Shown here piece after piece: positions 1 to 10,000 of a DNA stretch of 10,000 nucleotides. The first letter of the stretch is position 1, and each line of letters begins with the position of its first letter. Made by a program: the position numbers and the translations under genes. A model generated the notes under the pieces. That model was not told the origin of the DNA. It did no database searches and saw only the letters and a program-made list of their open reading frames with translations. The stretch comes from Chloroflexota bacterium (GTDB lineage Bacteria; Chloroflexota; Anaerolineae; Anaerolineales; Villigracilaceae). The stretch covers positions 1-10,000 of the forward strand of contig JAIWOB010000111.1 in NCBI GenBank assembly GCA_020217065.1. The letters are read 5' to 3'.

Positions 1-353
1 GCGGCGGCAATTCGCGGGTCATCCTGTGCGAGCGCGGCATTCGCACCTTCGAGACCTCCACGCGCAACACCACCGACATCAACGCCATCCCCGTCCTCAA
101 AAAATTGACTCACCTTCCCGTCATTCTCGACCCTTCCCACTCCACCGGCGACGCCGAGTTCGTCGCCGCCGTCGCCAAAGCGGGAATCGCCGCAGGCGCC
201 GATGGGCTCATCGTCGAGGTTCATCAAGACCCGCCGCGCGCCATCTCCGACGGAAAACAATCGCTGACGCCCAAAGCCTTTGCGGAAATGGTCCAACAGG
301 TGAAAGCGGTCGCCGAAGCGGTGAACAGAAAATTCGCGAACGGAAAATCGTAA
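1..353 (+). CDS. aroF: 3-deoxy-7-phosphoheptulonate (DAHP) synthase, 3' end only
   Basis: This is the C-terminal ~116 residues of a DAHP synthase; the 5' part lies left of the window and the reading frame enters at base 3. The enzyme condenses phosphoenolpyruvate with erythrose-4-phosphate, the first step of the shikimate pathway, in the cytoplasm. The visible part carries [10 protein letters not shown] (bases ~24-53), the DPSHSTG metal/phosphate loop (~129-149) and an [17 protein letters not shown] stretch (~216-266). These are typical of the type I-beta family (Thermotoga/Bacillus-like AroF; related KDO-8-phosphate synthases differ here). The stop TAA at 351-353 is 16 bases before tyrA, so it is the first visible gene of the aro operon. 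Any N-terminal ferredoxin-like or fused chorismate mutase regulatory domain would lie outside the window, so feedback control cannot be judged. The family call is firm; the sub-family call is likely. Confidence 0.93.
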
Positions 354-369
354 TTCCCATTTCTTCAAC

Positions 370-1227
370 ATGGACGGCTCAGACTTTACCCTATCCAAAT
401 CGCGCATTGCAATTATTGGGCTTGGCTTGATGGGCGGCTCGCTGGCGCTCGCTTTGCGCGGAAAGTGCGCCGCTTTATATGGAATTGACGCCGATTCCGC
501 CGTCCTCGAACTTGCCCTCTCGCAGCGCATTGTGGACGCCGTTTCGACCGACCCCGCCGCCCTCCTACCCAAATCCGATTTCGTCGTCCTTTCGACGCCC
601 GTTCCCGCAATTTTGACCCTGCTGGAACGCCTGCCGTCGCTGACTCAAAGCCCGTGCGTCGTCATGGATTTAGGCTCAACCAAAGCGCAAGTGGTCGAAG
701 CCATGTCTCAACTCCCCGCGAACTTCGACCCCATCGGCGGTCACCCCATCTGCGGCAAGGAGAAACTTTCGTTAGCCAACGCCGAGCGCACGCTCTATTA
801 CGCCGCGCCGTTTCTGCTTACGCCGTTGCGGAGAACGTCTCCGCGCGCTCTTTCCGCCGCGCGGCAAGTCATCGGCGCAATTGGGGCAAAAGAAAAAACG
901 CTCGACGCAACCGAACATGACCGCGTTCTTGCCTGCACAAGCCACCTGCCCTTTTTAATTTCTTCCGCGCTGGCGTTATCCACCCCCGAAGACGCCGCGC
1001 CGTTTGTTGGACCCGGTTTCAAATCCGCCAGCCGCCTTGCTGGAACGCCATCCTCGATGATGTTGGGAGTCCTTCAATCCAACCGCGAGAATGTCTTGAA
1101 CGCGCTTGACAAAATGCAAGACGAACTCGCGCGAATCGAATCCGCATTGCGCGAGAACGATGTTGAAAAATTAGAATCGCTCTTGGGAAACGCGCAAGAA
1201 AAATACCGAAAATTTATCCAACCGTGA
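370..1227 (+). CDS. tyrA: Prephenate/arogenate dehydrogenase, TyrA family
   Basis: A 285-residue NAD(P)-dependent dehydrogenase that oxidatively decarboxylates prephenate (or arogenate) toward tyrosine. The N-terminal Rossmann fold starts with GLGLMGGS (residues 17-24), followed by an acidic residue after the second strand (D40) and DLGSTK (100-105). The second half has GGHPICG (123-129), whose H125 matches the catalytic histidine of Aquifex TyrA. It then has EHD (182-184), SHLPF (191-195), and a FKSASRLAG segment carrying the arginine expected to bind the substrate carboxylate. A long helical C-terminus completes the dimerisation domain. There is no ACT domain and no chorismate mutase fusion, so any tyrosine inhibition would have to act at the active site. 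Whether prephenate or arogenate is preferred cannot be read from sequence alone. ATG at 370 lacks a clear Shine-Dalgarno sequence; it follows aroF by 16 bases, suggesting coupled expression. Confidence 0.93.
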   Translation: MDGSDFTLSKSRIAIIGLGLMGGSLALALRGKCAALYGIDADSAVLELALSQRIVDAVSTDPAALLPKSDFVVLSTPVPAILTLLERLPSLTQSPCVVMDLGSTKAQVVEAMSQLPANFDPIGGHPICGKEKLSLANAERTLYYAAPFLLTPLRRTSPRALSAARQVIGAIGAKEKTLDATEHDRVLACTSHLPFLISSALALSTPEDAAPFVGPGFKSASRLAGTPSSMMLGVLQSNRENVLNALDKMQDELARIESALRENDVEKLESLLGNAQEKYRKFIQP

Positions 1228-1248
1228 TAATTTATCTTTCGCCGTTTT

Positions 1249-2565
1249 ATGAAAATCGCCCCCATTCTTCGCCCGCTTAATGCCGTCGTTCGAGCGCCGG
1301 GGTCAAAATCGCTGACCAACCGCGCCTTGTTAATTTCCGCGCTGGCAAACGGAGAAACGCGCCTCGCCAACGCCCTTTTCTCGGACGATTCAATCTATTT
1401 CGCCCAAGCCCTGCAAACGCTGGGGTTCGACGTGCGGCTGGACGAAGCCAGCCAGGAAATGACCGTAAAAGGGCTGGGCGGAAAAATCCCCGCATCGAAA
1501 GCGGAGTTGTTCATCGGCAACGCCGGCACCGCGGCGAGATTTTTATCCGCCTTTCTGACTCTGGGGCGCGGCGAATATATCCTCGACGGCGATTCGCGCA
1601 TGAGGCAAAGACCGATTGGCGATTTGATTGATTCTTTGTCCGAACTTGGAGCGAACGTTCGTCCGCTTCTGAGTTCGGATTTTGGAATCCCAAATTCCCA
1701 AATATGCCCGCCGCTGCGAATCGCCGCTTCCGGTTTGCGCGGAGGAAAAACAAAAATCGCAGGCGGGATTTCGTCCCAGTTTTTATCCGCGCTGCTCATG
1801 GTCGCGCCTTACGCCCAGTCGCCCGTTGAAATCGAAGTCGCCGGCGAGCTTAACTCCAAACCTTACGTAGATATGACCGCCGCCGTCATGAAAGATTTTG
1901 GCGTTGAAATCCGCCGCAGCGGCTATCAACGGTTTTCCGTTCCAGTCGCGCATTACCGCCCTCCAACGCTCCCTTATCGCATCGAGTCCGACGCCTCGGC
2001 GGCTTCTTACTTTTTCGCCGCCCCAGCCGTCTGCGGCGGGACGGTCAAGGTGGAAAACATCTCCCGCAAATCCAAGCAAGGCGACGTTCGGTTTTTGGAG
2101 GTTTTGCAAAAAATGGGCTGCGCCGTGACCGAAGAGGAAAACTCCATCGCCGTTCATTGCCCGCCGGGGACGCCCATTACCGGCGTGGACATGGATATGC
2201 GCGACATTCCCGACACGGCGCAAACCCTGGCGGCGATTGCGCCCTTCGCCTCCTCTCCCACGCGCATTCGCGGCATCGCTTCCGCCCGCGTCAAAGAAAC
2301 CGACCGCATTCACGCAACCTGCGCGGAACTTTCGCGCCTGGGCGTTAAAGTCGAAGAACGCCCCGACGGCATGACCATCTATCCGGCTTTCAAAGGTCAA
2401 TCGTCGCTCTCCGAGCCTGTCAGCGTTCAGACCTATAACGACCACCGTATGGCGATGGCGTTTTCTTTGATTGGATTAAGGCTTGACGGCGTAATTATCG
2501 AAAACCCTTCCTGCGTATCCAAAACCTTTCCAAATTTCTTTGAAGTATTGGAATCGCTACGGTGA
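1249..2565 (+). CDS. aroA: 3-phosphoshikimate 1-carboxyvinyltransferase (EPSP synthase)
   Basis: A 438-residue enzyme transferring the enolpyruvyl group of phosphoenolpyruvate to shikimate-3-phosphate, the sixth step to chorismate and the glyphosate target. Motifs in order: PGSKSLTNRA (17-26, catalytic lysine K20), GNAGTAARF (90-98), RMRQRPIGD (117-125), SSQ (175-177, shikimate-3-phosphate binding), SKPYVDMT (203-210), IPD with D322 (E. coli D313), VKETDR with K349/E350 (E. coli K340/E341), NDHRMAM (397-403) and SKTFP with K425 (E. coli K411). All catalytic residues expected from E. coli are present. F98 falls where E. coli has P101, a position linked to glyphosate sensitivity. The start ATG lies 21 bases after tyrA with no obvious ribosome-binding site. 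The stop overlaps a possible GTG start of aroE. Confidence 0.97.
   Translation: MKIAPILRPLNAVVRAPGSKSLTNRALLISALANGETRLANALFSDDSIYFAQALQTLGFDVRLDEASQEMTVKGLGGKIPASKAELFIGNAGTAARFLSAFLTLGRGEYILDGDSRMRQRPIGDLIDSLSELGANVRPLLSSDFGIPNSQICPPLRIAASGLRGGKTKIAGGISSQFLSALLMVAPYAQSPVEIEVAGELNSKPYVDMTAAVMKDFGVEIRRSGYQRFSVPVAHYRPPTLPYRIESDASAASYFFAAPAVCGGTVKVENISRKSKQGDVRFLEVLQKMGCAVTEEENSIAVHCPPGTPITGVDMDMRDIPDTAQTLAAIAPFASSPTRIRGIASARVKETDRIHATCAELSRLGVKVEERPDGMTIYPAFKGQSSLSEPVSVQTYNDHRMAMAFSLIGLRLDGVIIENPSCVSKTFPNFFEVLESLR
2561..2565 (+). promoter_or_regulatory. Ribosome-binding site deciding the aroE start
   Basis: GGTGA, overlapping the aroA stop codon, lies five bases before ATG 2571. It favours that start over the GTG at 2562, which is inside this element. 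Confidence 0.5.
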
Positions 2566-2570
2566 TTTTC

Positions 2571-3434
2571 ATGACAAAGAATCCGTCTTTCCCCGCTTCT
2601 TCTTCATTTTTTCAATTGGGTCTCATCGGCTACCCTCTCGAACATTCGCTCTCGCCTAAAATTCACGCCGCCGCGCTCAAAGCCTGCGGATTAAGCGGCG
2701 GCTACGCCCTGTTTGCCATCCCCCCCCAAGACTCGCAAGGGTTGAAAGACTTAATCGCCCGCGTCCGCGCAAGAGAAATTCACGGTCTCAACGTCACCAT
2801 TCCGCACAAACAAAGCGTCATTGAGTTTATGGATGAACTTACGCCCACCGCCAAAGCCATCGGCGCGGCAAACACGATTTATCTGCGCGAAAACAAATTA
2901 ATTGGAGAGAACACCGACGCGGCGGGTTTTTTGGCGGACTTGAAGAAATTTACGGACGGTAAAAAATTGGCGTATGGAAAGTCGGCTCTGGTTTTGGGAG
3001 CGGGCGGCGCCGCGCGGGCGGTGGTCTACGCTTTATTGCGCGGCGGATGGAATATCGCCCTAGCGGCGCGAAGGGTGGAGCAAGCGCAAGAACTTGCCAA
3101 TTCGTTTGAGAACGAGACCATAAAAGTTATAAATTACGCCGAACTACAGCCTTTCGGCTTCGACCTGTTGGTAAACGCAACTCCTGTGGGAATGTCGCCC
3201 AAGGTGGACGATTCCCCCTTACCCGGAAAATTTTCGCTGAATAAAGATACAATGGTTTACGATTTGGTTTACAACCCGCGCCAAACAAGACTTGCGCGCG
3301 AAGCCCAGGCGCAGGGATGTTCCGCCGCAACGGGACTTGGGATGCTGATTGAACAAGCGGCGCTTGCGTTTGAGATTTGGACAGGCTGCGTCCCGCCGCG
3401 CCCGGCGCTTTGGCAATCCATCCGCGATGTTTAA
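2571..3434 (+). CDS. aroE: Shikimate dehydrogenase (NADP+)
   Basis: A 287-residue enzyme reducing 3-dehydroshikimate to shikimate with NADPH. It shows the shikimate-binding GYPLEHSLSP (20-29), NVTIPHK with catalytic lysine K80 (74-80), GAANT (98-102), ENTD with catalytic D116, the nucleotide loop GAGGAA (143-148), a NATPVGMSP segment, and a C-terminal GMLIEQAALAFEIWTG helix. All are standard for AroE, and the length is normal. I chose ATG 2571 because GGTGA at 2561-2565 precedes it by five bases. The alternative GTG at 2562 overlaps the aroA stop (GTGA) and would add three residues. An eight-C run at 2720-2727 sits in the N-terminal domain but the frame is intact. The next gene starts 17 bases later. 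Quinate/shikimate dehydrogenases of the YdiB type share this fold, but the operon context supports AroE. Confidence 0.95.
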   Translation: MTKNPSFPASSSFFQLGLIGYPLEHSLSPKIHAAALKACGLSGGYALFAIPPQDSQGLKDLIARVRAREIHGLNVTIPHKQSVIEFMDELTPTAKAIGAANTIYLRENKLIGENTDAAGFLADLKKFTDGKKLAYGKSALVLGAGGAARAVVYALLRGGWNIALAARRVEQAQELANSFENETIKVINYAELQPFGFDLLVNATPVGMSPKVDDSPLPGKFSLNKDTMVYDLVYNPRQTRLAREAQAQGCSAATGLGMLIEQAALAFEIWTGCVPPRPALWQSIRDV

Positions 3435-3439
3435 CTATT

Positions 3440-3443
3440 GGAG
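3440..3443 (+). promoter_or_regulatory. Ribosome-binding site of aroC
   Basis: GGAG in the 17-base aroE-aroC gap, eight bases before ATG 3452. It is one of only two clear Shine-Dalgarno sites in the operon. Confidence 0.65.
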
Positions 3444-3451
3444 ACCGATAA

Positions 3452-4636
3452 ATGCCCTTACGCTTCCTCACCGCCGGCGAATCTCATGGACCTTCTCTCG
3501 TCGCCATCCTCGAAGGAATCCCCGCCGGCTTATCTATCGCGCCCGACATCATCAATCAAGAACTCGCCCGCCGCCAGCGGGGATACGGCTCAGGCGGACG
3601 CATGAAAATCGAAACCGACGTCGTTCAAATTCTGGGCGGCGTCATGGGCGGGGAAACCACCGGCGCGCCGATTGCTTTGCTGGTGCAAAACGACGACCAC
3701 GTCAAGTGGAAAGGAAAAGCCGTCGAGCCGATGACCGCCCCGCGCCCCGGTCATGCCGACTTGACAGGCGCGCTCAAATACGGTTACCGCGATTTACGTC
3801 CCGCGCTGGAACGCGCCTCCGCTCGTGAGACAACCATGCGCGTCGCGGTTGGCGCGATATGCAAACGTTTCCTCGCCCAATTTGGAATCGTCGTCGGCGG
3901 ATACGTCGTATCCATCGGCGAAGTTCAAGCCGAATTGGGGGATATGGCTTACGAAGAGCGTTTTCTTCGCGCGGAAGAATCCGATGTGCGCTGCCCAATC
4001 GAAACGGCGGCGCGGCAAATGCGCGCGGAAATTGAAAAAACCATGCGTGGAAAAGATACGCTGGGCGGCGCGCTGGAAATCGCCGCCTTGAACGTTCCCC
4101 CCGGACTGGGAAGTTTTGTTCAATGGGACAAACGCCTCGACGCAAAACTCGCTTTTGCCGTCATGTCGGTCCAAGCCATTAAAGGCGTGGAAATCGGCGA
4201 AGCGTTTGAAAACGCGAAACGTTTTGGAACGCAAGCGCACGACCCGATACAAATTCAAAATTCAGAATCCCAAATTCGGAAGTTGCGGCGTTCAACCAAT
4301 CGCGCCGGCGGCGTTGAAGGCGGAATCAGCAACGGGCAGCCCATTGTCATCCGCGCGGCGATGAAACCCATCGCCACCACGTTGACCCCCCAGCAAACGG
4401 TGGACCTCGCCGCAGGCGCAAACGCGCCCACAAAATACGAACGCTCCGACTTCTGCCCAGTTCCGCGCGCCGTTCCTATTCTCGAAGCGATGACCGCCTT
4501 TGTCCTCGCCGACGCCCTGCTCGAAAAACTAGGCGGCGATTCGATGAACGAAATCAAACCCCGTTTCGAAGCGTTACGCCAAGCCGCGCTCGAAGAACTG
4601 CCCATGGATAACGCGCCGCGCGTTTTTTGGGAATGA
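3452..4636 (+). CDS. aroC: Chorismate synthase
   Basis: A 394-residue, reduced-FMN-dependent enzyme that eliminates phosphate from EPSP to give chorismate, the last shared step. Signature 1 GESHG (9-13) includes catalytic H12; signature 2 PRPGHAD (97-103) includes H101, followed by ERASARETTMR. Signature 3 is the GGISNG...MKPIATT stretch preceded by TNRAGG, and the C-terminal SDFCPVPRAVPILEAM segment is also typical. The segment RRQRGYGSGGRM (40-51) differs from the usual GYGRG form: a serine, S47, occupies a position that is normally an EPSP-binding arginine (R45 in the Streptococcus enzyme, from memory). The segment just before TNRAGG is encoded by an AT-rich stretch (about 4248-4278) unlike its surroundings, but the family allows variation there. 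ATG 3452 is preceded by GGAG at 3440-3443. Confidence 0.96.
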   Translation: MPLRFLTAGESHGPSLVAILEGIPAGLSIAPDIINQELARRQRGYGSGGRMKIETDVVQILGGVMGGETTGAPIALLVQNDDHVKWKGKAVEPMTAPRPGHADLTGALKYGYRDLRPALERASARETTMRVAVGAICKRFLAQFGIVVGGYVVSIGEVQAELGDMAYEERFLRAEESDVRCPIETAARQMRAEIEKTMRGKDTLGGALEIAALNVPPGLGSFVQWDKRLDAKLAFAVMSVQAIKGVEIGEAFENAKRFGTQAHDPIQIQNSESQIRKLRRSTNRAGGVEGGISNGQPIVIRAAMKPIATTLTPQQTVDLAAGANAPTKYERSDFCPVPRAVPILEAMTAFVLADALLEKLGGDSMNEIKPRFEALRQAALEELPMDNAPRVFWE

Positions 4637-4664
4637 CCTTCGCTGACCGATTACAAACCGAACC

Positions 4665-6164
4665 ATGACTCACATCTTTCTTTACGGACCTCCCGGCGCA
4701 GGCAAATCCACCCTCGGAAATCTGCTGGCGCGGAATCTCAATCTTCCGTTCGTTGACCTTGACCGCGTCGTCGAAGAAAACGCCGGCGTGACGATTCAGA
4801 ATATAATGGAACAAAGGGGCGAAACCGCTTTCCGCGACCTCGAAACCGCCGCATTAAAAAACGTCCTCCATCAAAGCCCGTCTGTGATTGCGCTGGGAGG
4901 CGGCGCGCTGCTCCGCGACGAAAACCGCGCGCTTGCCGAATCGCAGGGGCGGGTGATTCTGCTCATGGCGGAGTTGGACACGCTGCTGCAAAGATTACAA
5001 AACGATTCAAACGAACGTCCTTTGCTGGCGGGCGGCTTGCGCGACAAGTTAAAATCTTTGCTTGAAAAACGCGGCGCGCATTATCGTTCCTTTCCCTTGA
5101 TAATTTATGTGGACGGAAAAACTCCTGAACAAAACGCGTATCGCGCGCAGGTCGCGCTCGGCAGGCATCGCCTCTCGGCAATGGGGGAATATGACGTAAT
5201 TGTCGGGCCGGTTGCCAGCCTGCCCCGCGCAAACTTAATCGTCACGGATGAAAATGTCGCGAAATTTCATCTCGAAAAAATTCAATCTTTCCTGAACGTC
5301 CAGCCGGTCATCCTCCCCGCCGGCGAAGAACACAAAAACCTTGAAACGATTTCCGCCTTATGGAAAGCCTTCCTCCAAAACGGTCTTGACAGAAAAAGCG
5401 CGGTCATCGCGTTGGGCGGCGGCGTCGTTACGGATATGGTCGGTTTCGCCGCCGCAACCTACATGCGCGGCATGGATTGGATTGCCATGCCGACCACGCT
5501 GCTCGGCATGGCGGACGCCGCTCTGGGCGGCAAGACAGGATTCGATTTGCCCGAAGGCAAAAACCTCATCGGCGCGTTTCACCCGCCCAAATTGGTTTGG
5601 GCTGACCCGCAATTCTTATCCACCTTGCCCGAACGCGAACTCGTCTCCGGCATGGCGGAAGCGGTCAAACATGGAATAATTTCCGACCCCGAATTGTTCG
5701 ACCTGTGCGCGCGGGGATTGGATTGGACAAAAGAAAACATCGAAACCGTCGTCAAACGCGCAATGGCGGTAAAAATCAAAATCATCGAAGAAGACCCCTA
5801 TGAAAAGGGATTCCGCGCCGCGTTGAACCTGGGACACACCGTTGGCCACGCCGTGGAACTGGTCAGCGGCTTCCGCCTGCGGCACGGCGAAGCGGTCGCA
5901 ATCGGCATGACGGTCGAGGCGCAATACGCGGAGCGGATTGGAGTTGCGAAACCGTCCACAGCGGAAAGAATCCGTCAAACGCTGGAGGCGCTCGATTTGC
6001 CGGCTCAAATTCCCCGGCAAATGCCGCGTGAAAAAATCGTTCAAGCGATGCGGATGGATAAGAAAAAGAACGCGAGAACGATTCGGTTCGCGCTGCCTGT
6101 GGAAATTGGCAAGGTCGAATTGGTTGACGTAACGGACGCGGAAGAAGTCGTCGGCGTTCGATAA
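4665..6164 (+). CDS. aroKB: Bifunctional shikimate kinase / 3-dehydroquinate synthase fusion
   Basis: A 499-residue fusion of two non-consecutive shikimate-pathway enzymes. Residues ~1-165 are shikimate kinase (shikimate + ATP to shikimate-3-phosphate): P-loop GPPGAGKST (8-16), DLD (31-33), R57 of RGETAFRDLE, GGG (78-80), lid arginine R118 in ERPLL, and a C-terminal R136 region. Residues ~175-499 are 3-dehydroquinate synthase (DAHP to 3-dehydroquinate, NAD- and metal-dependent): PAGEEHK (218-224), GGGVVTD (251-257), PTTLL (276-280), GGKTG (288-292), and metal ligands E332, H391 and H407, with H395 between them. The H391/H395/H407 spacing equals that of the Aspergillus enzyme (271/275/287). 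The junction is short with no internal ribosome-binding site. Such AroKB fusions are known, for example in Thermotoga. The start, 28 bases after aroC, has no clear Shine-Dalgarno sequence. Confidence 0.95.
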   Translation: MTHIFLYGPPGAGKSTLGNLLARNLNLPFVDLDRVVEENAGVTIQNIMEQRGETAFRDLETAALKNVLHQSPSVIALGGGALLRDENRALAESQGRVILLMAELDTLLQRLQNDSNERPLLAGGLRDKLKSLLEKRGAHYRSFPLIIYVDGKTPEQNAYRAQVALGRHRLSAMGEYDVIVGPVASLPRANLIVTDENVAKFHLEKIQSFLNVQPVILPAGEEHKNLETISALWKAFLQNGLDRKSAVIALGGGVVTDMVGFAAATYMRGMDWIAMPTTLLGMADAALGGKTGFDLPEGKNLIGAFHPPKLVWADPQFLSTLPERELVSGMAEAVKHGIISDPELFDLCARGLDWTKENIETVVKRAMAVKIKIIEEDPYEKGFRAALNLGHTVGHAVELVSGFRLRHGEAVAIGMTVEAQYAERIGVAKPSTAERIRQTLEALDLPAQIPRQMPREKIVQAMRMDKKKNARTIRFALPVEIGKVELVDVTDAEEVVGVR

Positions 6165-6176
6165 TATGCCGCCAGT

Positions 6177-6180
6177 GGAG
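6177..6180 (+). promoter_or_regulatory. Ribosome-binding site of aroQ
   Basis: GGAG in the 21-base aroKB-aroQ gap, five bases before ATG 6186. Confidence 0.7.
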
Positions 6181-6185
6181 AAACG

Positions 6186-6620
6186 ATGAAGATTTTGGTT
6201 TTACATGGTCCAAACTTAAACCTGCTGGGAAGCCGCGAACCCGAAATTTACGGCGCAATGACTCTCGACGACATCAACGAGAGATTGATTGCGCTGGGAA
6301 AGGAACTCGGCGTAGAAGTCGTGTGCCGGCAATCCAACCATGAAGGCGCGTTGATTGACGCGCTGCACGACGCGCGGACCTGGGCGGGCGGGGTGGTCTT
6401 CAACCCCGGCGGGTACACTCACACTTCGGTCGCCTTGCGCGACGCGATTAGCGCAATCGGCATCCCCGTGATTGAAGCGCATCTATCGAATGTATACGCC
6501 CGCGAAGAATTTCGCCATACGTCGTTAATATCGGCGGTTTGCAAGGGTAAAGTGACGGGCTTCGGGTGGCGGTCTTACGTGTTGGGACTGCGCGGTCTGG
6601 CGGATATAATCAAGACATGA
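6186..6620 (+). CDS. aroQ: 3-dehydroquinate dehydratase, type II
   Basis: A 144-residue type II dehydroquinase that dehydrates 3-dehydroquinate to 3-dehydroshikimate, normally as a dodecamer of flavodoxin-like subunits. The N-terminus has GPNLNLLG (8-15), R17 and catalytic Y22 in IYG; then QSNHEG (49-54), FNPGGYTHTSVALRDA (72-87, with N73 and H79), HLSN with catalytic H99, and R106 in the REEFRH segment. These match the Mycobacterium tuberculosis Y24/R19/N75/H81/H101/R108 set with constant spacing. Length is typical. It is unrelated to type I AroD. GGAG at 6177-6180 lies five bases before the ATG. The stop TGA overlaps the start of the following esterase gene (ATGA), indicating translational coupling. 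Confidence 0.97.
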   Translation: MKILVLHGPNLNLLGSREPEIYGAMTLDDINERLIALGKELGVEVVCRQSNHEGALIDALHDARTWAGGVVFNPGGYTHTSVALRDAISAIGIPVIEAHLSNVYAREEFRHTSLISAVCKGKVTGFGWRSYVLGLRGLADIIKT

Positions 6621-7384
6621 ACGCGCAAACCATTCCCACCGCCGAACCCTTTTTTTTACCGGGAAACCGCACGGGAGTTCTGCTCATTCACGGTTTCACC
6701 GGCGCGCCCAAAGAAATGCGCTGGATGGGAGAATACCTCAACGCGCAGGGATATTCCTGCCTGGGCGTGCGGCTGACGGGTCATGCCACCCGTCCAAAAG
6801 ATATGATACGCTCGCGCTGGACGGATTGGACGGCGTCCGTCGAAGACGGTTACAACATCCTGCGCGGCGCGGCAGACCGAATTTTCCTTGCCGGGCTTTC
6901 AATGGGCGGCGCCCTCAGCCTGTTGATGTCTACGCGGCTTGAAGCCCGAGGAGTCGTCTCCATGTCCGCACCCTACGACTTACCCGACCCGCATCCTGCC
7001 TGGCAGATTTGGCTGGCAAGTTATTTCATGACTTACCAAAAGAAAACAAAGGAAGAGCCGGGCGCAGGCTGGTTCGACAAGGAAGCCTCCAAAGACCATG
7101 TTTCCTACCCGTTGAATCCGGTGCGTTCCGGCGCGGAACTGGCGGTTTTGCTGGCAAAGATGCGCGCCGCGCTGCCAAAAATCAAAACGCCGGTATGTTT
7201 GATACACTCGCGCAACGACGCCTACGTCCCGCCCGAAAACATGGAACGCATCTACGCCGCCCTTACTGTAACGGACAAATCGAAATTTTATGTTGAGAAA
7301 TCCGGTCACGTCGTTACGCGCGACGCCGAGCGCGGGCGGGTCTTTGAAATTGCGCGGGATTTTATTCGCCGCCTCGAACTTTGA
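6617..7384 (+). CDS. Est30-like carboxylesterase, alpha/beta hydrolase
   Basis: A 255-residue alpha/beta hydrolase without signal peptide or membrane segment, so probably cytoplasmic. The oxyanion-hole loop is HGFTG (25-29), the nucleophile elbow GLSMGG (93-98, S95), the acid D201 in HSRNDAYVPP, and the base H231 in SGHVVTRDAER. Order, spacing and length match Est30-type carboxylesterases and related monoacylglycerol lipases, which hydrolyse short- to medium-chain esters. The natural substrate is unknown. The gene starts inside the aroQ stop codon, so it is probably translated with the aro operon, but none of its motifs suggests a role in aromatic amino acid synthesis. A frame extension back to GTG 6566 is possible but would overlap aroQ by 55 bases. 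An eight-T run (6650-6657) lies at codons 12-14 with the frame intact. Confidence 0.85.
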   Translation: MNAQTIPTAEPFFLPGNRTGVLLIHGFTGAPKEMRWMGEYLNAQGYSCLGVRLTGHATRPKDMIRSRWTDWTASVEDGYNILRGAADRIFLAGLSMGGALSLLMSTRLEARGVVSMSAPYDLPDPHPAWQIWLASYFMTYQKKTKEEPGAGWFDKEASKDHVSYPLNPVRSGAELAVLLAKMRAALPKIKTPVCLIHSRNDAYVPPENMERIYAALTVTDKSKFYVEKSGHVVTRDAERGRVFEIARDFIRRLEL

Positions 7385-7411
7385 GACCGACAAGATGCGG
7401 GACGCTCGCCT

Positions 7412-8548
7412 TCATTTCACAATGACTCCAGCGCCGGCGGCGGGACGACAAACATAACACACGGCGTCCAACCCGGACCTCTGTTTATACGCCGCGGAAA
7501 CGGCGTCCACAAACGCGCTGGTTTTTCCCTCTTCCACCAGCGCAACGGCGCAGCCGCCAAACCCCGCCCCAGTCATACGCGCGCCGTAACAAGACGGTTG
7601 TTCCTGAGCGCATTCGACAATCTGATTCAACGCTTCGTTGGCGACTTCAAAATCGTCGCGCAAACTGGCGTGGCTGGCGTTGAACAATTCTCCCAGCCGC
7701 TTGATATCGCCCGCGCGCATCGCCTGCGCGGCTTCGAGGACGCGCTGGTTTTCGGTCACAATGTGCCGCGCCCGTTTCATAACGACTTCGCTTAATTCGC
7801 CTTCTCCGCGTTTTAAGTCCTCCGCGCGAACATCGCGCAGCGCCTTTACCCCAAACCAGCGCGCCGCCTCTTCGCATTGACTGCGCCTTTCGTTATAGGC
7901 GGAATCCACCAACCCGCGGCGGGTGGAAGTATCCAAAATCACCACCGAGGTTTTTTCTGGCAGGGGAGCGTATTGGATTTCCAACGCGCGGCAATCTAAA
8001 AACAGGGCGCAGCCCTCTTTGGAAGCCGCGCTTGCCATCTGGTCCATGATTCCGCAATTAACCCCCACCCACCGGTTCTCGGCTCTCTGGGCGATTTGCG
8101 CCATCTCAACGGCATTCCACGCAAACCCGGAGACTTGAGAAAAGGCGCAGGCGGCGGCAAGTTCGACGGCGGCTGAAGAAGATAAGCCCGCGCCGCGCGG
8201 CACGTCGCCGCTCATTACGGCGTCAAATCCGCGCAGGCGATACCCCGCTTCCTGCAATTCGCTGGCGACGCCTTTAACGTATTCCGCCCAGCCCTCGCCC
8301 TTTTTGAGGGCGTTCAAATCGAAAACCGAATCCGCTTGAAGGTCGAGGGAACGAATGCGTACAATCGAATCGGCGCGCGGGGCAAGGGCAATCCAAACCG
8401 CATGGTCAATCGCCATCGGCATGACAAAACCGTCGTTATAATCGGTATGTTCGCCAATCAAATTGACCCGCCCAGGCGCGCGCGCAACAATCTGGGGATT
8501 GGCGTTAAAATAAGTCGAAAAAGAGCGAAAAAGCGTTTCCGTTTCCAT
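7412..8548 (-). CDS. galK: Galactokinase
   Basis: A 378-residue GHMP-family kinase that phosphorylates alpha-D-galactose at C1 with ATP, the entry step of the Leloir pathway. The galactokinase signature GRVNLIGEHTDYN (26-38) contains R27, E33, H34 and D36. The GHMP phosphate-binding motif GDVPRGAGLSSSAA lies at 114-127, catalytic base D169 is in CGIMDQM, and the C-terminal motif 3 is MTGAGFGGCA. All key residues expected of an active sugar kinase are present. The chosen ATG at 8548 puts the signature ~26 residues in, as in other galactokinases. The frame stays open to 8689, but an extension would overlap the divergent gene and has no family support. No galT, galE or galactose transporter is visible in the window. 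Its stop faces that of the esterase gene 27 bases away, and its start is 26 bases from a divergent gene. Confidence 0.96.
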   Translation of the reverse strand: METETLFRSFSTYFNANPQIVARAPGRVNLIGEHTDYNDGFVMPMAIDHAVWIALAPRADSIVRIRSLDLQADSVFDLNALKKGEGWAEYVKGVASELQEAGYRLRGFDAVMSGDVPRGAGLSSSAAVELAAACAFSQVSGFAWNAVEMAQIAQRAENRWVGVNCGIMDQMASAASKEGCALFLDCRALEIQYAPLPEKTSVVILDTSTRRGLVDSAYNERRSQCEEAARWFGVKALRDVRAEDLKRGEGELSEVVMKRARHIVTENQRVLEAAQAMRAGDIKRLGELFNASHASLRDDFEVANEALNQIVECAQEQPSCYGARMTGAGFGGCAVALVEEGKTSAFVDAVSAAYKQRSGLDAVCYVCRPAAGAGVIVK

Positions 8549-8574
8549 AGCCGCATTTATACCATAGAGGCGTC
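8549..8574. promoter_or_regulatory. Short divergent spacer with AT-rich core between galK and the membrane-protein gene
   Basis: The 26 bases between the two starts contain the AT-rich core ATTTATACCATA. On the minus strand this gives TATAAA (8561 down to 8556), a plausible -10 box for galK, but the transcript would begin almost at the start codon and no good -35 hexamer is visible 16-18 bases upstream. On the plus strand only weak matches (TATACC, TACCAT) are present, with AGAGG at 8566-8570 serving as the likely ribosome-binding site for GTG 8575. Any full promoters must extend into the neighbouring coding sequences. Confidence 0.35.
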
Positions 8575-10000
8575 GTGACCGAACTTGAACTGCTGCAAAT
8601 GTATGAGCCTGTCTTGCGCTTCGCCAAAAGCGAACGTTTTTTTCCAATGGCGGTCGAGCCGTATCTGGAACGCTGCGCTCTTTTTGCAAGCGGTCCCCAC
8701 GGCATAGCGGAGTTTTTTTCTCATCATCAAGAGCCGCTGGAAAAGCGCATCGGCAAATTGAAAAGCGAACAGTTTTACCTGCGCTTCGTCAATAAGCCCT
8801 TGAACGATTCGGACGCCTGGGTTTGGCTGGCGATATTATCCGCAGCGGGGATTGCGGCAGGCTGGCTGGTGGGACGCGCCGCCGGCGTGGAGATAGCGCT
8901 TTCCGCCGCGCTAATCGCCGCCTCGATTCTTTTCATGGTCGCTTCGCCCGTGCGGCTGCGGATTATCCCTGCGGCGCTGGCGGCTCTTTTTTTCATCTTT
9001 CTCGAAATTGCGCCCATCGGCTTCTTTCTTCATCGCAGCCAATACGTCAGCGTCGCGGTGGAGTATCTGGTTCTACTGCCCATCTACCTGGTCGTCCTGT
9101 TCTATCTCTCCATCCGCACCATGAAGTTTATCCTAAGCCACGTTATTCCGGAAATGCCCGGCATGGCAATGGACATCCTCTCTCATGCAACGGAGAAAAT
9201 CGCCGAAGAAGCCTACGCCCAATACGCAAAAATCCTGGAAACGCACCCCCAGCCGGTGTATTACGGGCGGGCGCTATACGAGACCGACGAAGCGAAAAAC
9301 CGCTGGACAATTCTGCAATATCACTTTTTCTACGCCTTCAACGACTGGAGGCTGGCGGCAAACGGCATGAATCACCATGAAGGCGATTGGGAAATGGTCG
9401 CCGTGTATCTGAAAAACGACGCGCCGTATGCGGTTTTATTTTCTCAACACGGCGCGGGAAGCCTCACAAAATGGAATCGGACGACCCTTGCCGCCGATTC
9501 CCAGGGGCGTTGGACTCATCCCCTGGTCTATGTGGCGCTTGGCTCTCACGCCAACTACAGCAGCCCCGAAGTCATTCGCTCGCCGCGCATGTATAAAGCG
9601 GGCAGGCTGCAGCGCCTTTTATTCTGGGCGGACGGGCTGATACACTACGCTTTTTTGCTGCTTAACCCAAGCCAAAAGGCGCGGCAAATCGCCCTGGAGG
9701 AAGTCCACTCCCGCCCCATTGAGGCGTTCTTTGACGAAAGCGCTTTTCTCGATTTGCGCGACGAAGAAGACCATTATGTCGTCAGCCTGCCGATGGAAAT
9801 GGCGACCGGCGACGGATTCCGCGCCGGCTGCGGGCAGCCGTTTCGCGAACGATTTATGAAGTCGGAGAGTTACCTCAAACGTAACAAGTCGGACCGCAGG
9901 GTGACGCGCCCAAAACTCCGCGAATGGCGTCCCGTCTTATTGAATCCGGAGCCTGATTGGGTACAATATAAGGGATTATGGGGCGTACAAAGCTGGCTGG
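8575..10000 (+). CDS. Uncharacterised four-helix membrane protein with Vps62-like HEGDWE domain (partial)
   Basis: The frame is open from GTG 8575 to the window edge (475 codons plus one base), so the 3' end is missing. Residues 1-80 are soluble and include YEPVLRFAKSERFFP (10-24). Four hydrophobic helices follow at about 83-100, 105-123, 130-152 and 160-180, so both ends should lie on the same side of the membrane. The large C-terminal part contains QYHFFYAFNDW (248-258), HHEGDWEMVAVYL (267-279), SQHGAG (290-295), GSHANY (323-328) and, near the edge, QYKGLWG. That order resembles the Vps62/DUF946-type domain found in fungal, plant and scattered bacterial proteins, whose biochemical role I do not know. 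AGAGG at 8566-8570 precedes the GTG; ATG 8599 is an alternative without a ribosome-binding site. I infer no function; the conserved H/E/D/W residues could form a binding or catalytic site. The gene itself is well supported by its length and the conserved-looking motifs. Confidence 0.8.
   Translation, partial: MTELELLQMYEPVLRFAKSERFFPMAVEPYLERCALFASGPHGIAEFFSHHQEPLEKRIGKLKSEQFYLRFVNKPLNDSDAWVWLAILSAAGIAAGWLVGRAAGVEIALSAALIAASILFMVASPVRLRIIPAALAALFFIFLEIAPIGFFLHRSQYVSVAVEYLVLLPIYLVVLFYLSIRTMKFILSHVIPEMPGMAMDILSHATEKIAEEAYAQYAKILETHPQPVYYGRALYETDEAKNRWTILQYHFFYAFNDWRLAANGMNHHEGDWEMVAVYLKNDAPYAVLFSQHGAGSLTKWNRTTLAADSQGRWTHPLVYVALGSHANYSSPEVIRSPRMYKAGRLQRLLFWADGLIHYAFLLLNPSQKARQIALEEVHSRPIEAFFDESAFLDLRDEEDHYVVSLPMEMATGDGFRAGCGQPFRERFMKSESYLKRNKSDRRVTRPKLREWRPVLLNPEPDWVQYKGLWGVQSWL

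Follow-up and report, generated by a model that had tools for sequence, protein, structure and literature searches.

The DNA stretch analyzed here (the window; 10,000 nucleotides) is contig C73 of a genome bin (G000) that comprises 1.60 Mb in 157 contigs and is 66% complete. Its features are listed in Table 1, together with those on other sequences. The region 3–6620 is a nearly complete gene cluster for aromatic amino acids that extends from DAHP synthase to dehydroquinase, and shikimate kinase is fused to dehydroquinate synthase in this cluster.

Table 1. Positions of the features in the window and on other contigs and loci
Feature	Sequence	Positions	Strand	Basis
GATC-free stretch	window	1..10000	both	word counts
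DAHP synthase gene, 3' end, runs off window start	window	3..353	+	PF00793 6.9e-30
Prephenate dehydrogenase	window	370..1227	+	PF02153, PF20463
EPSP synthase	window	1249..2565	+	PF00275 2.7e-120
Shikimate dehydrogenase	window	2562..3434	+	PF08501, PF18317
Chorismate synthase (query for finding relatives)	window	3452..4636	+	PF01264 2.3e-117
Shikimate kinase and 3-dehydroquinate synthase, single frame	window	4665..6164	+	PF01202, PF01761, PF24621
Type II dehydroquinase	window	6186..6620	+	PF01220 3.7e-58
Alpha/beta hydrolase	window	6566..7384	+	PF12146 4.1e-19
Galactokinase-like GHMP kinase	window	7412..8689	-	PF10509, PF00288, PF08544
475-residue open frame, runs off window end	window	8575..9999	+	no Pfam/NCBIfam match
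Second type II system	C140 (L150)	5954-8171	-	PF09520 (RE_TdeIII) 1.4e-81
Methyltransferase gene start, truncated by contig end	C106 (L149)	2-505	-	top PADLOC match type III, 1.1e-24
DUF6996/DUF6997/DUF7226 gene	L249	3881-5188		
DUF6996/DUF6997/DUF7226 gene	L262	3853-5142		
DUF6996/DUF6997/DUF7226 gene	L263	3806-5077		

The word GATC, which is self-complementary, was counted zero times on both strands of the window, and its complete absence from the 10 kb, reported in the initial annotation, is thus real. Shuffles of the window that preserve dinucleotides gave 45.0 ± 6.4 sites, and the maximal-order Markov expectation is 38.6, close to the ~39 sites per 10 kb estimated at that time. When the synonymous codons of eight window genes were shuffled 1,000 times, GATC occurred 30.3 ± 4.4 times, with a minimum of 17. 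The annotation had also stated that GAT, present more than 100 times, never precedes C; the 120 GAT trinucleotides are indeed distributed among GATT (68), GATG (25), and GATA (27). GGCC (2 versus 66 expected), AGCT (2 versus 17.5), and GTAC (4 versus 14) are also scarce in the window.

Relatives of the locus were found with the chorismate synthase and are mostly metagenome genomes of Anaerolineales or Chloroflexi with best-segment identities of 77 to 86%; one is a Candidatus Villigracilaceae, and 36 of the 60 relatives searched belong to the same genus. Seven window genes were aligned codon-wise with 44 Chloroflexi loci (L052–L095; 257 gene pairs), leaving out matches below 55% identity, gapped codons, and the galactokinase. 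The relatives' loci carry 923 aligned GATC sites, none of which is kept in the window. The annotation had already noted that the gap spans all ten genes and is not the codon habit of one of them. Where the amino acids are identical, 0 of 493 GATC sites are kept versus 375 of 789 CATG sites, and these sites are not independent because the relatives have common ancestry. The commonest replacements at such sites in the window are GACC, GATT, AATC, and CATC. The loss of GATC acts at the DNA level, largely via synonymous changes.

Of the 44 loci, 4 have an observed/expected GATC ratio below 0.25, 2 a ratio of 0.25 to 0.5, 12 one of 0.5 to 0.78, and 26 one of 0.78 or more. In the case of GGCC, the same classes contain 22, 8, 10, and 2 of the 42 loci with enough expected sites. 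Taken together, these distributions indicate that many of the relatives have lost GGCC and that a strong loss of GATC is confined to a few lineages. Three of the Anaerolineales loci, L078, L084, and L085, have GATC at 0.087, 0.055, and 0.107 of expectation, respectively, and a low G+C content of 0.39 to 0.41.

The loss is genome-wide. The 140 contigs that were read comprise 1,414,675 bases (88% of the bin) and contain 25 GATC sites versus 4,829 expected (ratio 0.005, i.e. 0.5%). As many as 121 of these contigs lack the word, including some of 14.6, 18.0, and 19.1 kb. The avoidance extends beyond GATC, to GGCC (396 versus 9,314 expected, ratio 0.043) and AGCT (786 versus 3,652, ratio 0.215) among others; GTAC (1,363 versus 2,198, ratio 0.62), CTAG (254 versus 673), CCGG (5,044 versus 8,787), and several six-letter palindromes are also low in the same contigs. 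The words GTCGAC, GTGCAC, CTCGAG, GCATGC, and ATCGAT stand at 0.10 to 0.17 of expectation, and the nonpalindromic ATCGAC is as rare as the avoided palindromes (31 versus 222 expected). No C5 methyltransferase (PF00145) was found in the bin, although GGCC is at 4% of expectation. The second type II system in Table 1 is apparently intact and consists of the endonuclease gene adjoining that of a 475-residue methyltransferase. TdeIII cuts GGNCC, and no five-letter word is more depleted in the 140 contigs than GGACC (882 versus 1,638 expected).

The candidate for the cause of the GATC loss is located on contig C51 (L020), whose word use (GATC 1 versus 34 expected, GGCC 3 versus 54) is consistent with the same genome. 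The contig carries a cassette of three intact genes that encode, in this order, a DpnII-type N6-adenine methyltransferase, a helix-turn-helix (HTH) protein, and a protein of 153 residues (ORF153). The methyltransferase (301 residues) is the one PF02086 protein found in the bin. It matches DpnM (2dpm) with 235.7 bits (5.6e-69), compared with ~128 bits for Dam-type chains, and TIGR00571 with 285.8 bits; by this homology, it is predicted to be GATC-specific. After a gap of 56 bases follows the gene of the 81-residue HTH_3 protein (5e-14; 5.2e-15 for its counterpart in genome G220), which matches general HTH models only, and ORF153 begins three bases further. The sole GATC of this 10-kb contig lies at 3995, within the ORF153 gene.

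ORF153 gave no significant match in Pfam, NCBIfam, or PADLOC, its best E value against PDB sequences was 0.54, and the searches revealed neither a motif nor a fold of a nuclease. Its conserved residues include K20, H41, H43, D47, K51, E114, E120, and K121. A DpnII endonuclease (PF04556) was considered for ORF153 and rejected: Pfam recognised nothing in the protein itself, and PF04556 was not hit by any of 41 relatives. The protein collection contains 456 relatives, and those with names among the 120 listed are hypothetical or uncharacterised proteins. The ORF153 cluster is present on six contigs, the longest of which has 421,440 bases. Among the 120 listed relatives, 16 (ORF153 itself included) share the length of their longest contig with one of the 120 listed methyltransferase relatives; control offsets of 1 to 25 bases gave a mean of 1.04 and a maximum of 4 such matches. 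G220, which belongs to another family, carries an identically ordered set of these three genes, with 67% identity for the methyltransferase and 75% for ORF153. The G220 cassette contains no GATC.

The occurrence of the cassette and the frequency of GATC were compared in 34 genomes, namely, seven with an ORF153 match among 396 members of the class (G000 included), 10 from the family of G000, and 17 from its genus, using the ratio of RRGATCRR to RRCATGRR counts as the index. The two cassette carriers have the two lowest ratios, 5:1098 (0.005) in G000 and 5:610 (0.008) in G220; the link is strong, with n = 2 carriers, and would arise by chance once in 561 draws if cassette and rank were independent, kinship being ignored. 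The other 32 genomes range from 0.059 (G011), 0.093 (G004), and 0.30 (G075) up to 2.33. Seven of these 32 have a methyltransferase match of at least 170 bits and no ORF153 match, and their ratios are 0.30 (G075), 0.49 (G297), 1.00 (G002), 1.05 (G241), 1.37 (G021), 1.50 (G307), and 2.33 (G268); the matched stretches of G002 and G021 contain a stop. As G004 and G011 are poor in GATC and gave no match to ORF153, another cause of GATC loss likely exists in the genus.

Matches to ORF153 were found in 10 Chloroflexota genomes, and a DNA methyltransferase adjoins ORF153 at all eight readable loci (those of G138 and G124 being excepted). The partner is not always of the DpnM kind. In G155 and G198, the relative directly follows a PF01555-type methyltransferase, and GATC is normal (1.53 and 1.04). 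Relatives in G612 and G598 are likewise paired with PF01555 methyltransferases; RRGATCRR, counted without the CATG control, occurs 165 times in 1.3 Mb and 462 times in 1.0 Mb, respectively. G584 has a distant relative (27% identical), tail to tail with a CcrM-like methyltransferase, and 75 RRGATCRR in 0.9 Mb, again without the CATG control. The copies in G124 and G151 are broken (ratios 1.26 and 1.48), that of G151 adjoining a PF01555 methyltransferase, and the copy in G138 (1.88) lies at a contig start with its upstream neighbor cut off. Probably, one putative endonuclease family is paired with different methyltransferases, so with different sites.

The cassette resembles DpnII-type systems (DpnM with a PF04556 endonuclease) in that its methyltransferase is clearly of the DpnM kind and the partner gene lies 3' of the methyltransferase gene, an arrangement also seen on two plasmids. 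It differs in the length of the partner (153 residues, compared with DpnII proteins of 302 and 304 residues on these plasmids), in the lack of PF04556, and in the HTH gene between the two. In six plasmid relatives, the gene after the methyltransferase encodes a PF04556 DpnII endonuclease in two, an AlwI-type endonuclease (as annotated) in one, and a DUF6997/DUF7226 protein in three. The last group comprises the DUF6996/DUF6997/DUF7226 proteins (423–435 residues) that follow a DpnM-like methyltransferase on Stanieria, Levilactobacillus, and Megamonas plasmids, and this protein is perhaps another unrecognised endonuclease. The small HTH_3 protein directly before a putative endonuclease gene is reminiscent of PvuII and other type II systems that encode a controller protein, but the HTH protein of C51 has no match beyond the general models. 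The PvuII endonuclease has about 157 residues, a length similar to that of ORF153; PvuII differs in site and fold.

Since the loss is genome-wide and largely synonymous and an intact cassette with a DpnII-type methyltransferase is present, the best reading is a resident GATC restriction system. The initial annotation had proposed selection by such a system, and this part of it is supported; its example of a DpnII-like enzyme had no tblastn match in the 88% of the bin that was read, and the gene in the endonuclease position belongs to an undescribed family. GATC-specific restriction of some make is very likely to be the cause. Here, we propose the following mechanism. The methyltransferase would mark GATC, the HTH protein probably controls expression, and ORF153 would be the endonuclease for GATC that is left unmarked. 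At times of incomplete methylation, every GATC would expose the genome to self-cleavage, and lineages in which sites disappear, mainly through synonymous changes, would be favored, so that long selection by the resident type II restriction-modification system has probably removed the word from the genome. In two genomes from different families, the cassette is observed together with an almost complete loss of GATC, and that the cassette, with ORF153 as the GATC endonuclease, caused the loss is in our view a good deal more probable than any other account. For the wider proposal, the scales stand even: ORF153 would represent a family of very small restriction endonucleases, widespread and so far undescribed, that serves several methyltransferase classes, hence several sites, and that, when paired with a GATC-type partner, drives near-total loss of its site from the host genome. 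The nuclease fold of such a family would perhaps be one not yet solved.

According to the available part of one study (PMC4687349), a palindromic site is scarce in genomes with a resident type II system for it, and avoidance can outlast a lost system. A conventional GATC endonuclease (DpnII, MboI, or Sau3AI type), with ORF153 as an accessory, might accordingly have been lost or lie in the unread part of the genome, of which 34% is missing by the completeness estimate; 17 of the 157 contigs are outside those read. The GATC-poor G004 and G011, which have no ORF153, and the ORF153 relatives in genomes with normal GATC (G155, G198, and G138) would fit such an enzyme. However, tblastn with two PF04556 and three DUF6997 queries found nothing in the 140 contigs, 88% of the bin, whereas the control methyltransferase was found, and the sole other genome with an equal loss, G220, has the same ORF153 cassette. 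We therefore consider a conventional enzyme unlikely. Processes other than a type II endonuclease, such as MutH-type nicking of unmethylated GATC or DpnI-type cleavage of methylated GATC, are more improbable still: among 42 genomes with DpnI-type systems, 38 are short of GATC, as given in the same part of that study (PMC4687349), but the seven genomes with a similar methyltransferase retain GATC, and the C51 cassette is laid out like a type II system.

Library preparation, assembly, or binning might have introduced an artefact: of the 140 contigs, 131 have a length of exactly 10,000 bases, the deposited bin having been cut up by software. Against this, the GATC-free contigs of 14.6 to 19.1 kb exceed that length, and the ORF153 cluster is present on six contigs of up to 421,440 bases. 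Digestion of the library by an enzyme would leave contig breaks at GATC rather than synonymous codons in its place, and the codon shuffles gave about 30 sites instead of none; an artefact is hardly credible as an explanation.

Site avoidance as such is already known; new are its depth here and the candidate family of enzymes. In the available part of a study of 97 genomes (PMC4390886), 16% of expectation is the lowest value given for GATC among Group A and B cyanobacteria, compared with 0.5% in G000. The methylomes of Lake Biwa Anaerolineae include GANTC, TTAA, and GCWGC, not GATC, in the part of the report at hand (PMC6329791). In the literature searched, there was no report of GATC avoidance this deep or of a partner like ORF153. 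A restriction system is usually viewed as costing its host a modest deficit of sites; in G000, the deficit is ~200-fold. That a genome from another family shares both the deficit and the cassette, and that most close relatives lack the deficit, amounts to a natural experiment on how strongly restriction shapes genomes. Site avoidance may also serve as an enzyme finder, as the missing word led to a cassette whose candidate cutter matches none of the searched libraries. If ORF153 does cut GATC, it would define a new family of enzymes, whose nuclease fold might be new as well.

If the 200-fold shortage is near balance, it requires a scaled selection estimated at ~5 per site (ln(1/0.0052), two-state model). 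As to the 25 leftover GATC sites, three are within tRNA genes and one is at the 5' end of the 16S rRNA gene. The 18 tRNAs and the 88-base 16S piece found in the RNA-gene search, which covered the 19 contigs with leftovers, make up 0.11% of the sequence (binomial probability 1.6e-8 for the leftovers there); with 0.43% allowed for unseen rRNA, the value is 4e-6. On contig C139 (L248), two GATC sites at 4341 and 4362 lie 21 bases apart in a near-repeat, and a third is at 2742.
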